Below are positions 13,552 to 18,014 of a DNA stretch of 64,000 nt, piece by piece. Within the stretch, counting starts at the first letter, position 1, and every line of letters begins with the position of its first letter. This DNA comes from an uncultured Mucilaginibacter sp. (lineage in GTDB: Bacteria; Bacteroidota; Bacteroidia; Sphingobacteriales; Sphingobacteriaceae). The notes below the pieces were generated by a model. That model made no database searches. It was not told the DNA's origin and saw only the letters and a program-made list of their open reading frames with translations. The position numbers were made by a program, and so were the translations under genes. The stretch covers positions 1 through 64,000 of the forward strand of contig CAJYJH010000045.1 of the NCBI GenBank assembly GCA_913775265.1, written 5' to 3'.

Positions 13552-14328
13552 TCAGGGCTTTTTAGCTAAAGTATACTTGCCCTTAAAATCGGTAGTAGCC
13601 TGGGTGCCGTCCGTTACCGGTGGGGGTGGTGGGGGCATATCGGCAGTAATTTTGATAGGCTTTTTCATTGAGGGGGCCGGATTTACTTTAATCTGGTAAT
13701 TAAAAGTGCCTTCGTTGTTAGCCGGTAGGTTTAAATACTTTATTGGGATAGCCAATTCATACGTATAAGTTAGCTGTTCATCAAATAATGAGGCAGTTGC
13801 AATGCCGTCGGTGTTGTATTTAGAAATAGAGGAGTCGGGTATTTCTTTGATACCCGTAACCGTAATCATTTTTTCGCGTTTGGCAAAAAAATCGTTCACC
13901 TCATTAATGCTAACAACTTCGTTGTTTTTGCGGGCATTAACCACACGCCCAAACTTATTGGCCGTCTCCCACATTGGTGGCCCTTCAATAGCAGGGTAGG
14001 TTACCGATAGGTAGTTTTTGCTTTTCTTATTGGCTTCGCGGTTGATGATCCAGGTAATCCCACCCCTTATAATCTTATCAATAATCTCTTTTTCTTTCGC
14101 TTTTGCTGTTAAGTAAACGTTTTTATCATCATTCGAGATGGTATAAAAAAGCTCTATAGCTCTGTTATACGCCTGATATTCATCATTCCATTCCGACGTT
14201 TTTCCGTTGATTTTAATATCTGCCGGTGCATATACGCTTTTGGTTTGAACGTTGGGTAGTTTTTGAGCGTTCGATACTGTGGTACCAAGTAAAAATATGG
14301 TAAGAATAAGTTGGAGTACAGGCTTCAT
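13552..14328 (-). CDS. secreted protein of unknown function, CBM9/DOMON-like fold suspected
   Basis: A 258-residue protein with a signal peptide ending near VSNAQ. The mature start, IKINGKTSEWNDEYQAYN, followed by FYTISNDDKNVYLTAKAKE resembles the opening of CBM9/DOMON-like beta-sandwich domains. Near the C-terminus there is a proline run (MPPPPPPV). No enzyme motif is seen. A decayed paralog lies at about 17262-18014 on the same strand, and the exosortase cassette sits between the two. The promoter region is shared with the divergent sorting-substrate gene. Confidence 0.6.
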   Translation of the reverse strand: MKPVLQLILTIFLLGTTVSNAQKLPNVQTKSVYAPADIKINGKTSEWNDEYQAYNRAIELFYTISNDDKNVYLTAKAKEKEIIDKIIRGGITWIINREANKKSKNYLSVTYPAIEGPPMWETANKFGRVVNARKNNEVVSINEVNDFFAKREKMITVTGIKEIPDSSISKYNTDGIATASLFDEQLTYTYELAIPIKYLNLPANNEGTFNYQIKVNPAPSMKKPIKITADMPPPPPPVTDGTQATTDFKGKYTLAKKP

Positions 14329-14816
14329 TGTGTAACAGGTTTCTTAATACTAATTAAGCAAATTAATATAGTGCATCCTAAAGTTATTTTTTTACGTATA
14401 AAGTCTTAACGCAATGAATGTAATTAAAGTAGTTTCGTTTGTATTAAAGCACAGCACCTGCTGTAAGGTTAATCAGCTGGTGCCTTGTACGGTTATTATG
14501 CAGAGACATTGGACATTTTGTTGCTTGATAAGCAGACTATCATAACAGGTAAATAAACCTTTTAAAGCAAAATTATCCGGGCGGGCAGCAACTCATACAA
14601 TTATAAGTTGTTAAGTTTTGTAATGCACAAGCCAAACATTTGTTATTGCTAATAAGTTATCAGGTTTAATGGTTAGTTAAACTTAATATAAAAAAAATAT
14701 AGTTTATTTAAAGATTTATTGCAAAATTGAGCAATGTATTTGCTTTTTAATATTTTATATAATATTTTTGTTAAACAGATTATTAACGGCACACAACACA
14801 ATTTTTAAAATAGTTT
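14329..14816. other. long divergent intergenic region upstream of the exosortase cassette
   Basis: A 488-base, very AT-rich region. It holds a hairpin (GCACCTGCTG at 14454-14463 and CAGCTGGTGC at 14474-14483, one mismatch) and a good promoter match near 14739-14770. I see no gene in it. Its length is unusual for this window and suggests regulation. Confidence 0.45.
14739..14770 (+). promoter_or_regulatory. Bacteroidota-type promoter of the exosortase cassette
   Basis: TTTG at 14739-14742 is followed after 20 bases by TATTTTTG at 14763-14770. This matches the Bacteroidota -33/-7 consensus (TTTG, about 19-21 bases, TAnnTTTG) exactly. It would start transcription about 40 bases before the sorting-substrate gene. 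Confidence 0.6.
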
Positions 14817-15218
14817 ATGAAAAAACTTTTCCTTCTGTTGGCTCTGGCTTTTGCTGCTTACACAAGTTCATTTGCTCAGAGAGCCGGTAATACCGGTACT
14901 ACATGTACAAACCCTACAACTGCAGAACCTTGTGATGTTACTGATTGCAGTAATCCATCTAATGGTTTCGTTGTTAATCCGCCAAACTCCGGTGCCGGAA
15001 CTTACGTTTGTAATTACAGCGATAGCCCGCCAAACGGAAATAAATCTATTTGCCCATACATTTATAACGGCGGTACTTATACCAAACACACTGTTTTTGG
15101 TTGCAGGCTTTCTGCCGGTGCTCCGATAAACTCAGGCCTTATTTTCTTAATTATTGCAGGTGCCGGCTTGGGTGCTTATATTTTAAGAAAAAAACAACAG
15201 TCTAACCTGTCTGCATAG
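14817..15218 (+). CDS. small Cys-rich exosortase substrate (PID-CTERM-like sorting signal)
   Basis: A 133-residue protein with a signal peptide (cleavage near SFAQ, residue 21), a polar Cys-rich body, and a C-terminal tripartite sorting signal. That signal is a short motif PINSG (103-107), one transmembrane helix (LIFLIIAGAGLGAYIL), and a basic tail RKKQQ. This resembles what I recall as the PID-CTERM class of Bacteroidota, with Asn in place of Asp. The body has six Cys (30, 39, 44, 65, 79, 96), an even number that suggests three disulfides, and is rich in Asn, Pro, Gly and Thr. The exosortase gene starts 28 bases downstream. Cleavage and anchoring at the cell surface are inferred; the biological job is unknown. 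Confidence 0.7.
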   Translation: MKKLFLLLALAFAAYTSSFAQRAGNTGTTCTNPTTAEPCDVTDCSNPSNGFVVNPPNSGAGTYVCNYSDSPPNGNKSICPYIYNGGTYTKHTVFGCRLSAGAPINSGLIFLIIAGAGLGAYILRKKQQSNLSA

Positions 15219-15245
15219 TAATAATTGTAGTTTGATTAATAGGTT

Positions 15246-15800
15246 TTGAATATATCTTCTCAGCTTAACAAACTCTTAAAAAATATCCCGAAAAGTGCCT
15301 TGCTATTTTTAGTAAAGGCACTTTTTTTTTATTTGGCATGGGTTTGTTTATACAATTTTTACTTAAAACCACAGCAGGTTCTTGATCCGCCTCTTACTAA
15401 CACATTAACCTTTTTAACCAGTAAAATAACTCAGTTTATTTATCCTACCCACGCCGTAACATTATCTTATCATACTACTGCACCCATGATCTTGGTGGAT
15501 GGCCAGTATAACTTAAAAATTTTGGATGGCTGTAACGCGCTGGAGTTGTATGTTTTTTATGTTGGCTTTATTGTTTGCTTTGGCGGGTCTTTAAAAACGT
15601 CGCTAAAATTTATTTTTGCCGGCTTGTTGGGCATTTTTGTGATAAACCTTATCAGGTGTGTAGCCCTATCGGTGCTTAGCTACAATCATTTCAGATACAT
15701 TGATGGTGTGCACCATTACGCATTTACCATTGTAGTGTATATATTTATTCTTACCCTTTGGTTGTATTTTTTTAAGGCCGGCCTTAAAGAAAATAATTAA
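15246..15800 (+). CDS. exosortase/archaeosortase family protein
   Basis: A 184-residue multi-pass membrane protein with the three catalytic signatures of the exosortase/archaeosortase family: Cys96 in LDGCNALE, Arg137 in NLIRCVAL, and His in VHHYAF (156/157). These proteins act as cysteine transpeptidase-like enzymes that cut C-terminal sorting signals in the inner membrane. The short length fits the compact single-substrate exosortases of Bacteroidota. The start is TTG 15246, as no in-frame ATG occurs before residue 81. The substrate gene is immediately upstream and a MauE-thioredoxin gene 30 bases downstream, so this looks like a dedicated operon. The exact subfamily cannot be assigned here. 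Confidence 0.8.
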   Translation: MNISSQLNKLLKNIPKSALLFLVKALFFYLAWVCLYNFYLKPQQVLDPPLTNTLTFLTSKITQFIYPTHAVTLSYHTTAPMILVDGQYNLKILDGCNALELYVFYVGFIVCFGGSLKTSLKFIFAGLLGIFVINLIRCVALSVLSYNHFRYIDGVHHYAFTIVVYIFILTLWLYFFKAGLKENN

Positions 15801-15830
15801 AGGTCATCCCTCTATTAATTTAATAATTGC

Positions 15831-16733
15831 ATGAAAACTCTGATCAGGTTTATTTTAGGCGCCATATTTATTATTTCGGGTACGGCCAAGGCTGTAGATA
15901 CGCAGGCATTTATAGGCCTTATACAAAACTATGACATTGGTTTTTTAGCTTATGCAGCTATTATTATACCACCATTAGAAATTATACTGGGGCTGTTTTT
16001 ATGGTTTAACATCGAAACTAAAACCTCGGCTTTAATTATGATGATATCAACCATATTTTTCACGGTTATATTTCTGGAAGTATGGTTAACCAAGGGGATT
16101 GAGGACTGCGGATGTTTCGGGTCGATTAAGTTTTTGCAGATGCCGCCCTGGGCAACCGTTCTACGTAATGTATTAATCATCAGCGGTTCGTATTTGCTGT
16201 ATCGTTTTCCGCCAGCCGAAAGCCTAAAAAACAGGAATTATAAATATGCTGCCATTGCTTTTGCTGGCCTCATTGCGTTCACGGTTTCGTCGGTATCGTT
16301 TTCCACTCCGCTTATCGACAAAAAAGAGATCAATAATCAGGATTTGACAGGCAAAGATGTAACAGCCACGTTTTTAAAAGACTTTAAAAAATTTGATCCC
16401 GCCAAGCGGTACGCGGTATTTATGTACAGCCCAACCTGTTTTCATTGCTGGGATGCCACGGCTAATGTTAAAAGCCTGGCCGAGTCGGGCTTTGTTGACG
16501 AAACCATCGCATTCGCACCCGGCGATTTGGTAAAAGAGCAAATGGAATACCAAGCCGCGCTTAAGCCTAATTATAAAATCTTTTTTATACCTGCCAAAGT
16601 GTTTTATGATATTACCACATCAACGCCCGTATTGATGATTATCCAAAATAATAAAATATTAAGCTACGATACCAGCGGACAGATAAAATCGGGCTACACG
16701 ATTAGGCATTTCGGCAAGAAAAAGCAAAGCTGA
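15831..16733 (+). CDS. MauE/DoxX-like membrane protein fused to a thioredoxin-like domain
   Basis: A 300-residue protein. The N-terminal half (to about residue 125) has four transmembrane segments and the DCGCFG motif (Cys93, Cys95) of MauE-like redox membrane proteins. A fifth membrane segment (about 138-158) leads to a C-terminal domain with CFHC (Cys203, Cys206) in a thioredoxin context, including a cis-Pro candidate in TSTPVLMI. It should carry electrons or disulfides across the inner membrane to the periplasmic thioredoxin domain. In this operon the natural client is the six-Cys sorting substrate two genes upstream. That link is inference from position and cysteine content. Confidence 0.75.
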   Translation: MKTLIRFILGAIFIISGTAKAVDTQAFIGLIQNYDIGFLAYAAIIIPPLEIILGLFLWFNIETKTSALIMMISTIFFTVIFLEVWLTKGIEDCGCFGSIKFLQMPPWATVLRNVLIISGSYLLYRFPPAESLKNRNYKYAAIAFAGLIAFTVSSVSFSTPLIDKKEINNQDLTGKDVTATFLKDFKKFDPAKRYAVFMYSPTCFHCWDATANVKSLAESGFVDETIAFAPGDLVKEQMEYQAALKPNYKIFFIPAKVFYDITTSTPVLMIIQNNKILSYDTSGQIKSGYTIRHFGKKKQS

Positions 16734-16787
16734 TGCTGCACTTTTATATTATTTTGAAACAACAACATACATTATAGTCAACCCATT

Positions 16788-17177
16788 ATGATCAGATTAA
16801 CCAGGCGCGAAATTATAGTAATGGTTATTTTGACTATGTTCAGTTTTATAGGTCATTACTATTTATCGTGGCACTGTACACTGTCGCCCCAGGGCAGGTA
16901 CGTGGGCAAGTTTATCTGGATTGTAATTATGGTAGTTACCGGTTACATCGGCTTGCTGAAGCACGAAATTAAGTGGGTAAAGCCCATGTGGGCTATGGTA
17001 AATGGTATATTGATGCTGTGTTTCGGCATAGATAAGTTGATGTCGCTTTACTACCACAAAGAAGCCATCTTCCGCATTGCATCACACATTTTTACGGTTC
17101 CCATCCCATTTTTAGGTGCCTGCATTGTGCCGCGCATTTTTATGGCGCAGTTTAGGAAGCATGCAGGGCGGGGGTGA
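16788..17177 (+). CDS. small multi-pass membrane protein of unknown function
   Basis: A 129-residue protein with four predicted membrane helices (about 9-28, 42-57, 65-80, 95-115) and few charged residues between them. I do not recognise a family. It starts 55 bases after the MauE-thioredoxin gene on the same strand, so it is probably the last gene of the exosortase cassette. It contains three Cys (in SWHCTL, MLCFG and GACIV) that do not form an obvious redox motif. Confidence 0.5.
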   Translation: MIRLTRREIIVMVILTMFSFIGHYYLSWHCTLSPQGRYVGKFIWIVIMVVTGYIGLLKHEIKWVKPMWAMVNGILMLCFGIDKLMSLYYHKEAIFRIASHIFTVPIPFLGACIVPRIFMAQFRKHAGRG

Positions 17178-17261
17178 GTTGAGATTGGTACTGGCAGTAC
17201 TAAACTAAGCCATTAATTAACGTCTGTACACATGGTTGCGGAGTAATGTAAACCACTTAAG

Positions 17262-18014
17262 GCTTTTCAGGCAATGTACTTGCCCTTAAGATTGGTAATG
17301 GCCAGGGTTCTTCCATTACCGGAGGCGGGGCAGCATGTCGGCAGTCATAGCGCCGGGTTTGTTTATGGTCGGGTCCGGAATGATTTTGATTTGATAATTA
17401 AACGTACCTGCGCTATTATCAGCTAACTTTAAATACTTAATGGGTAAAGCCAGCTCATAAGTGTAGGCTTATTGATCGTCGAATAAGGATGCCTCCGAAT
17501 TGCCATCCGTATTATACACAGAAACCAGTGAATTCGGAATTTCTTTGATGCCGGTAACTATAATCAGCTTTTCGCGTTTGGCAAACAGATCGTTAAACTG
17601 TTTAATATTGATGGCTTCCTTGTTGTACCGAGCCATGGCTTTGCCCGGCAAATTCATTAGCCACTTCCCACATGGCTGGCCCATCAAGTACCGGATAGGT
17701 TTTTGTCCGCTTCCCGGTTGATGATTGAATTAATGTCGCCCTCGAAATCTTATCAATATTGTCTCTTTCTTTCACCTTCGCCGTTAAATAAATATTTTGG
17801 TCGTCGTTCGAGAAGGTGTAAAAATCTCTGTCACCTTATTGTATGCCTGAAAACTGCCGTTCTATTCCGAAGCTTTGCCGTTGGTTTTAATATCCGCCGT
17901 GGCGTATATGCTTTTTGTTTGAACGATTAATGGTTTTTGGGCGCTTGTTGAAATGGTGGAGAGAGCGATTTCTATTACCGGGGCAATAGTAAGATTGATA
18001 GAAGGTCGTATTCA
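17262..18014 (-). pseudogene. decayed paralog of the 13552-14328 secreted protein gene
   Basis: Read on the minus strand, this stretch gives a degraded copy of the gene at 13552-14328. The signal-peptide region, then QKPLIVQTKSIYATADIKTN, is followed by a Trp-to-TAG stop at the SEW position, a frameshift, then FYTFSNDDQNIYLTAKVKE, and further on FAKREKLIIVTGIKEIPNS and the C-terminal part. There are at least one nonsense change and two frameshifts, and the start codon is out of frame. The outer limits are approximate. Confidence 0.8.

Follow-up and report, generated by a model that had tools for sequence, protein, structure and literature searches.

Does an exosortase of the Bacteroidota carry a redox partner of its own, and which proteins would such a partner serve? 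The question was raised by a compact cassette within positions 14739-17177 of a 64,000-nucleotide (nt) stretch of DNA (the window) from an uncultured Mucilaginibacter sp. (contig CAJYJH010000045.1), in which four open reading frames on one strand lie 27, 30, and 54 nt apart. The most likely answer is that the unit is a conserved variant of the PID-CTERM/exosortase type with a linked redox protein, which would act on several mini-proteins with six cysteines (Cys). An exosortase paired with a redox partner of this kind does not seem to have been described before: the literature search, with most subscription papers outside its scope, found no paper naming both exosortase and MauE, and among papers naming exosortase and disulfide none dealt with such a link in its title or in the beginning of its abstract. 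The four genes (protein lengths in amino acids, aa) are as follows:

14817 to 15218, plus strand: exported substrate of 133 aa (six Cys; tail of PINSG, helix, and RKK; NF046080)
15246 to 15800, plus strand: XrtX-like exosortase of 184 aa counting the start Met (TIGR04178, NF046081, conserved residues, tree)
15831 to 16733, plus strand: MauE-thioredoxin fusion (MauE-Trx) of 300 aa (PF07291, thioredoxin fold, invariant Cys)
16788 to 17177, plus strand: small four-helix membrane protein of 129 aa, a candidate exosortase accessory (relatives behind exosortases; remote profile link)

The open reading frame check agreed with the initial annotation in placing four genes here on the same strand, with a small membrane protein as the fourth at 16788-17177. 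All four were also found in G151, another genome of the genus, in identical order and with similar spacing, the proteins sharing 71, 72, 83, and 80% identity with those of the window (nonsynonymous divergence, dN, 0.13-0.20; synonymous divergence, dS, at least 1.5 and saturated for the exosortase). Sequence conservation indicates that the cassette genes are real because the whole set is kept in G151 at this identity, dN, and dS. The DNA match to G151 was confined to window positions 14929-17162 (15 kilobases (kb) and 11 kb compared) between unlike flanks and, because it ends at the cassette, the unit seems to be kept together at different genomic places. A chance grouping of four genes was rejected, since G151 retains the complete set between flanks that differ from those of the window. 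In the window, the cassette lies between a minus-strand gene of 258 aa and its degenerate copy (13556-14269 and 17261-17943; 68.6% DNA identity).

The exosortase gene, which begins with TTG as does its G151 relative, passed the general exosortase/archaeosortase signature TIGR04178 (37.5 bits, cut-off 23) and scored best among the specific models against XrtX (NF046081), missing the cut-off of that model (123.8 vs. 170 bits); strict XrtX membership was rejected on this score and the label XrtX-like was adopted. Residues C96, R137, and H156-H157 (95, 136, and 155-156 when numbered without the Met), which we take to be the catalytic residues of exosortase, were invariant in four sequences, and together with the TIGR04178 match they sustain the initial description of an exosortase with Cys/Arg/His signatures. 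The cassette enzyme would, on these features, cleave a C-terminal sorting signal. Exosortase F (XrtF, TIGR04128) is a related exosortase model that also comes with an associated protein (Fjoh_1448-1449 of Flavobacterium johnsoniae), but the cassette enzyme falls under the XrtF cut-off (83.4 vs. 90 bits). An excerpt of PMC10936215 places xrtF and its neighbor Fjoh_1449 among the genes that F. johnsoniae needs for surface (sand) colonization and states that the XrtF substrates are still unknown.

The predicted substrate carries C30, C39, C44, C65, C79, and C96, all six kept in G151, a signal peptide recognized by eye, and a C-terminal helix at about residues 104-122 in a PID-CTERM region spanning residues 103-126. 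It cleared the cut-off of NCBIfam model PID_CTERM (NF046080) by a small margin (26.8 vs. 26 bits; 29.9 bits when the genome was searched), and the 133-residue protein with signal peptide, six Cys, and PINSG-helix-RKK tail described at the outset was upheld. No solved-structure relative was found at E <= 1.

The third protein passed the Pfam MauE model PF07291 (72.2 bits, cut-off 27) with a MauE domain at residues 3-123 (CGCFG encoded at 16107-16121), followed by a further helix and a thioredoxin domain (CFHC at 16437-16448). Pfam thioredoxin models did not match the C-terminal part at E <= 1, but a structure model of this part built from six rows (predicted local distance difference test, pLDDT, 82) had a thioredoxin-like fold with CFHC at the expected active-site place and gave 50 PDB matches at E <= 0.001, including ResA/TlpA/DsbE/DsbF structures with template modeling (TM) scores of about 0.5-0.6; the model of the whole protein from two rows was poor (pLDDT 36). 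The PF07291 score and the modeled fold thus bear out a MauE-like protein fused to a CFHC thioredoxin domain. Both thioredoxin-domain Cys and one Pro at the cis-Pro position were invariant in the six rows, and C93, C95, C203, and C206 were invariant in seven of seven sequences down to 28% identity. Hydropathy and the positive-inside rule place both Cys pairs on the periplasmic side, provided that a sub-threshold fourth MauE helix at about 110-125 is counted. ResA/TlpA/DsbE thioredoxins resemble the cassette protein in fold and membrane attachment, whereas the cassette thioredoxin is joined to a MauE domain that itself bears a CxC pair, and identities were 8-21% among the matches listed. MauD is thioredoxin-like, and the MauE/MauD proteins of methylamine dehydrogenase maturation likewise combine a MauE domain with a thioredoxin-like partner; unlike them, the cassette version is a single fused chain linked to an exosortase and not to methylamine dehydrogenase, and it would be the one-chain equivalent of the separate MauE and MauD pair. 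The protein missed the cut-off of the BT_3928 family (NF045576; 72 vs. 250 bits), of which the source genome of the window (G000) encodes its own member elsewhere (L033, 427.8 bits).

The layout was placed in context by comparing 63 exosortase loci, comprising three of G000, 20 from a family search, and 40 from a class search. The family search matched in 20 of 399 genomes, and of the 19 apart from G000, 18 were included (three loci for G151). The class search matched in 156 of 395 genomes, from which the 40 highest-scoring loci not belonging to G000 were used. Flanks covered about 4-6 kb and were in some cases ended by contig ends. Fifteen of the 23 family-level and 30 of the 40 class-level loci encode a PIN/PID-type tail protein in the same orientation, at most 1000 nt ahead of the exosortase. 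The 129-aa membrane protein matched no curated NCBIfam or Pfam family, nor the XrtX-associated membrane protein model NF046082 at E <= 10, and its relatives occurred at 18/23 family-level loci and 1/40 class-level loci. Behind the class-level exosortases lie longer membrane proteins; a profile built from 31 such partners was remotely related to the 129-aa family (E 1.4e-6, probability 90%), and all five partners tested matched NF046082 below its cut-off. Five of five class-level exosortases tested passed the XrtX cut-off, one also that of XrtF, and their treatment as XrtF-like was dropped. MauE was found near the exosortase at only two of the 63 loci, namely the window and G151. Judged from gene content, substrate, exosortase, and small membrane protein are the common XrtX-like layout and, with MauE at only these two loci, the MauE-thioredoxin gene is therefore the addition. 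The cassette shares a small PID-CTERM substrate, an exosortase, and a small membrane protein with the exosortase X/PID-CTERM system (NF046081, NF046080, NF046082), and differs from it in the sub-cut-off exosortase score, the six-Cys substrate, and the MauE-Trx gene between exosortase and membrane protein.

The distribution of the genes within the genus bears on the link between MauE-Trx and six-Cys substrates. The window exosortase matched 15 of 149 genus genomes at E <= 1e-10, with matches of at least 46% identity only in G000, G151, and G847 (a further genome of the genus), and MauE-Trx was found at E <= 1e-15 in the same three of the 149. A naive exact test gave 1.9e-6 (3/3 vs. 0/146), or 0.002 within the 15 exosortase-positive genomes, the three genomes being related and the events not independent. 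The co-occurrence of exosortase, MauE-Trx, and Cys-rich substrate proposed in the initial annotation holds in these three genomes and does not extend to the 12 other exosortase-positive ones, none of which has a close MauE-Trx; nine of the 12 have an adjacent substrate by the tail rule with 0-2 Cys, and three (G357, G051, and G848) have none. The result that had been named beforehand as refuting the proposal, exosortase homologues that lack MauE-Trx and whose substrates are poor in Cys, was likewise observed in the other family-sample genomes.

The position of MauE-Trx also differed among the three genomes. In G847, MauE-Trx (59% identity to that of the window) lies directly behind a C33-type exosortase and two six-Cys substrates, one of them with PINKE in place of PINxG. 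The C33 loci of G000 and G151 show synteny with it over several kilobases of one flank; in the opposite flank, where the contig ends, 21 codons match the end of the neighboring response-regulator gene. A window-type exosortase was not found in G847 (genome 84% complete). In a tree of 63 rows (midpoint root, with a long-branch warning), the five exosortases of six-Cys substrates cluster with support 100/97; MauE-Trx is adjacent at three of these five loci, and the other two are in genomes with MauE-Trx at another locus. Each of G000, G151, and G847 thus has one close MauE-Trx that always stands beside a six-Cys exosortase, at two kinds of locus. Of all the observations, this locus switch argues most strongly for a functional tie and for a MauE-Trx shared in trans.

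Each of the three genomes encodes at least three six-Cys PID-CTERM proteins. The three PID_CTERM matches of G000 at E <= 1 are its three six-Cys proteins, among them the 95-aa substrate adjacent to the C33 exosortase and a C29 protein without exosortase linkage; the C8 exosortase of G000 has a PINDH substrate with a mature part lacking Cys. G151 has counterparts of the loci of all three G000 exosortases and of the unlinked C29 protein. Nine substrates came from the three genomes (six exosortase neighbors, one found by the tail model, and two by similarity to that one). In every one of them the stretch from residue 20 to PIN holds exactly six Cys; the spacings fall into about four types, and the last Cys lies 3-6 residues ahead of PIN. 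Clusters of the form CCxC/CxCC occur in C33, C258, and C29 type substrates. Because there are at least three six-Cys proteins and one close MauE-Trx per genome, at different exosortase paralogs, MauE-Trx may serve several six-Cys clients in trans. The early suggestion that Cys-rich substrates are linked to MauE-Trx is supported by co-distribution and locus switch; the dedicated path for one small protein that accompanied it is probably not correct, given these counts and the differing paralogs, and one substrate per MauE-Trx was rejected as too narrow. As a separate observation, the third exosortase type (L005, L036, L152) is paired with proteins whose tails read PINDH, PMNDH, or PLNDH and not PINxG.

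On balance, it is probable that MauE-Trx forms or corrects the disulfides of several six-Cys mini-proteins before exosortase sorting, the unit being an XrtX-like cassette with an added redox protein; gene order, family membership, Cys conservation, co-distribution, and the locus switch are observations. Topology, oxidation, cleavage, anchoring, and the order of steps are predicted, as follows. The signal peptide of the 133-aa substrate would direct export and its C-terminal helix would hold it in the inner membrane, where MauE-Trx (CGCFG and CFHC, predicted to be periplasmic) would form or correct three disulfides in the six-Cys segment, disulfide formation being suggested by the motifs and the co-distribution. 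The exosortase would then cut at PIN(S)G, assisted by the small membrane protein, and the folded mini-protein would pass to an anchor and be displayed at the surface. For archaeosortase A, an excerpt of PMC7157517 describes processing and the attachment of lipid to the newly formed C terminus. The remaining six-Cys PID-CTERM proteins encoded in the genome would probably be further clients of MauE-Trx in trans. A more tentative extension is redox-gated sorting, in which one MauE-thioredoxin would oxidize the six-Cys set in the inner membrane and two related exosortases would cut and display only correctly bonded molecules. If true, such gating would give an exosortase pathway an oxidative-folding step of its own, of which no description was found.

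Several observations weigh against oxidative folding of six-Cys clients by MauE-Trx. The co-distribution rests on three related species and may be a single evolutionary event, and no MauE-Trx adjoins the C33-type six-Cys loci in G000 and G151, both genomes carrying theirs in the window-type cassette. A C8-type PINDH protein of G847 (L152, 3071-3724) has four Cys before the motif and its exosortase is without MauE-Trx. Tail proteins of the class sample mostly have two Cys with no MauE found nearby, and a requirement for MauE-Trx by all Cys-containing substrates was rejected on this ground. Relatives of MauE-Trx with 28-34% identity occur in G019, G194, and G057 of an order sample (matches in 5/400 genomes in all) and in G468 of the class sample (2/395 including G000); these four genomes gave no exosortase match at the family- and class-search thresholds, and the 14-15 kb around their MauE-Trx contained neither a hit to the exosortase profile nor a tail protein of PIN type. 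A VKOR match is also present in G151; that G000 has none speaks for the reading.

The chemistry of MauE-Trx could in principle run in reverse, keeping the six Cys reduced or reshuffling them for metal binding or modification in the manner of ResA/TlpA reductases, which is considered unlikely. The closest folds of the thioredoxin part are of ResA/TlpA/DsbE type, several of which are reductases. The CCxC/CxCC clusters of the C33, C258, and C29 type substrates also look like metal sites, but neither CC nor CxC clusters occur in the window-type substrate, and a Cys count of exactly six across about four types of spacing suits disulfides. MauE has, moreover, been tied in print to disulfide formation, a passage of PMC7794033 (citing a 1997 paper) speculating that it helps in forming the disulfides of methylamine dehydrogenase. 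Somewhat less probable again is that MauE-Trx is a general envelope thiol oxidase standing beside exosortase genes by chance, with the six-Cys proteins among many clients. Such a role would suit its exosortase-free relatives in four genomes and the lack of a VKOR match in G000 and G847 (a search that did not take in DsbA/DsbB-type proteins), but 146 of the 149 genus genomes have no close MauE-Trx and it adjoins a six-Cys exosortase in 3/3 genomes at two kinds of locus.

A role of the Cys near PIN as a lipid attachment point before cleavage, of the kind proposed for MYXO-CTERM proteins, with MauE-Trx only keeping that thiol or the catalytic exosortase Cys reduced, appears very improbable. It would fit the position of the last Cys in the nine six-Cys substrates, the tail proteins with CWPPPC close before the motif at 21 of the 40 class-level loci, and an excerpt of PMC11980579 according to which cleavage of the MYXO-CTERM protein TraA needs its cysteines; related family-sample exosortases, however, have substrates without Cys before the motif and no MauE-Trx nearby.

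Other features of the compared loci were recorded. Among the CWPPPC tail proteins of the class-level XrtX loci (L093-L132), 13 read exactly CWPPPC[IV]PIDGG and most are about 70-85 aa. The exosortases of L045 and L107 (genomes G348 and G778) are broken by a stop codon, and the two substrates and membrane protein of L045 look open. Four small genomes of genus g11 (L044, L046, L047, L050) have exosortase and membrane protein with no substrate nearby by the tail rule, while the more distant exosortases of L051-L053 stand beside glycosyltransferase-like and acetyltransferase-like genes (by eye). The exosortase-free MauE-thioredoxin fusions (L058-L060, L062) lie near a second MauE gene in L058 and L060, and in L059 near an M50-like peptidase scoring just below its cut-off.

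Two further features of the cassette may bear on its expression:

14739 to 14770, plus strand: promoter-like TTTG-N20-TAnnTTTG (pattern match; same pattern in G151)
15290 to 15330, plus strand: terminator-like hairpin and T tract within the exosortase frame (about -17 kcal/mol; kept in G151)

The first pattern, a promoter consensus of Bacteroidota type, lies 46 nt ahead of the substrate start in the window and 49 nt ahead of it in G151. The consensus promoter reported initially is present to this extent, also ahead of the G151 substrate, but the pattern is no commoner in the window than chance (2 found vs. 2.13 expected). The hairpin is kept in G151 though same-residue codons are only about half identical past the first 18 compared codons; it arose in 3/1000 synonymous shuffles of the window and 6/1000 of G151, and the same rule found such a hairpin in none of the 34 window open reading frames of at least 200 aa. 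The standard terminator scan, with a loop limit of 8, does not list it. Under a looser rule, a hairpin lay within 150 nt of the exosortase start at 18/63 loci vs. 4/126 control windows, which were taken inside exosortase genes and just after them; part of the excess is to be expected from the intergenic DNA that was included. The hairpin at 15290-15330 would lower the enzyme relative to the substrate and keep the enzymes scarce.

Exosortase pathways are known mostly through genome comparison and the fate of their substrates before and after cleavage is little understood. With substrate, exosortase, accessory protein, and redox partner in one small unit, folding, cleavage, and anchoring would be traceable together, gene by gene.

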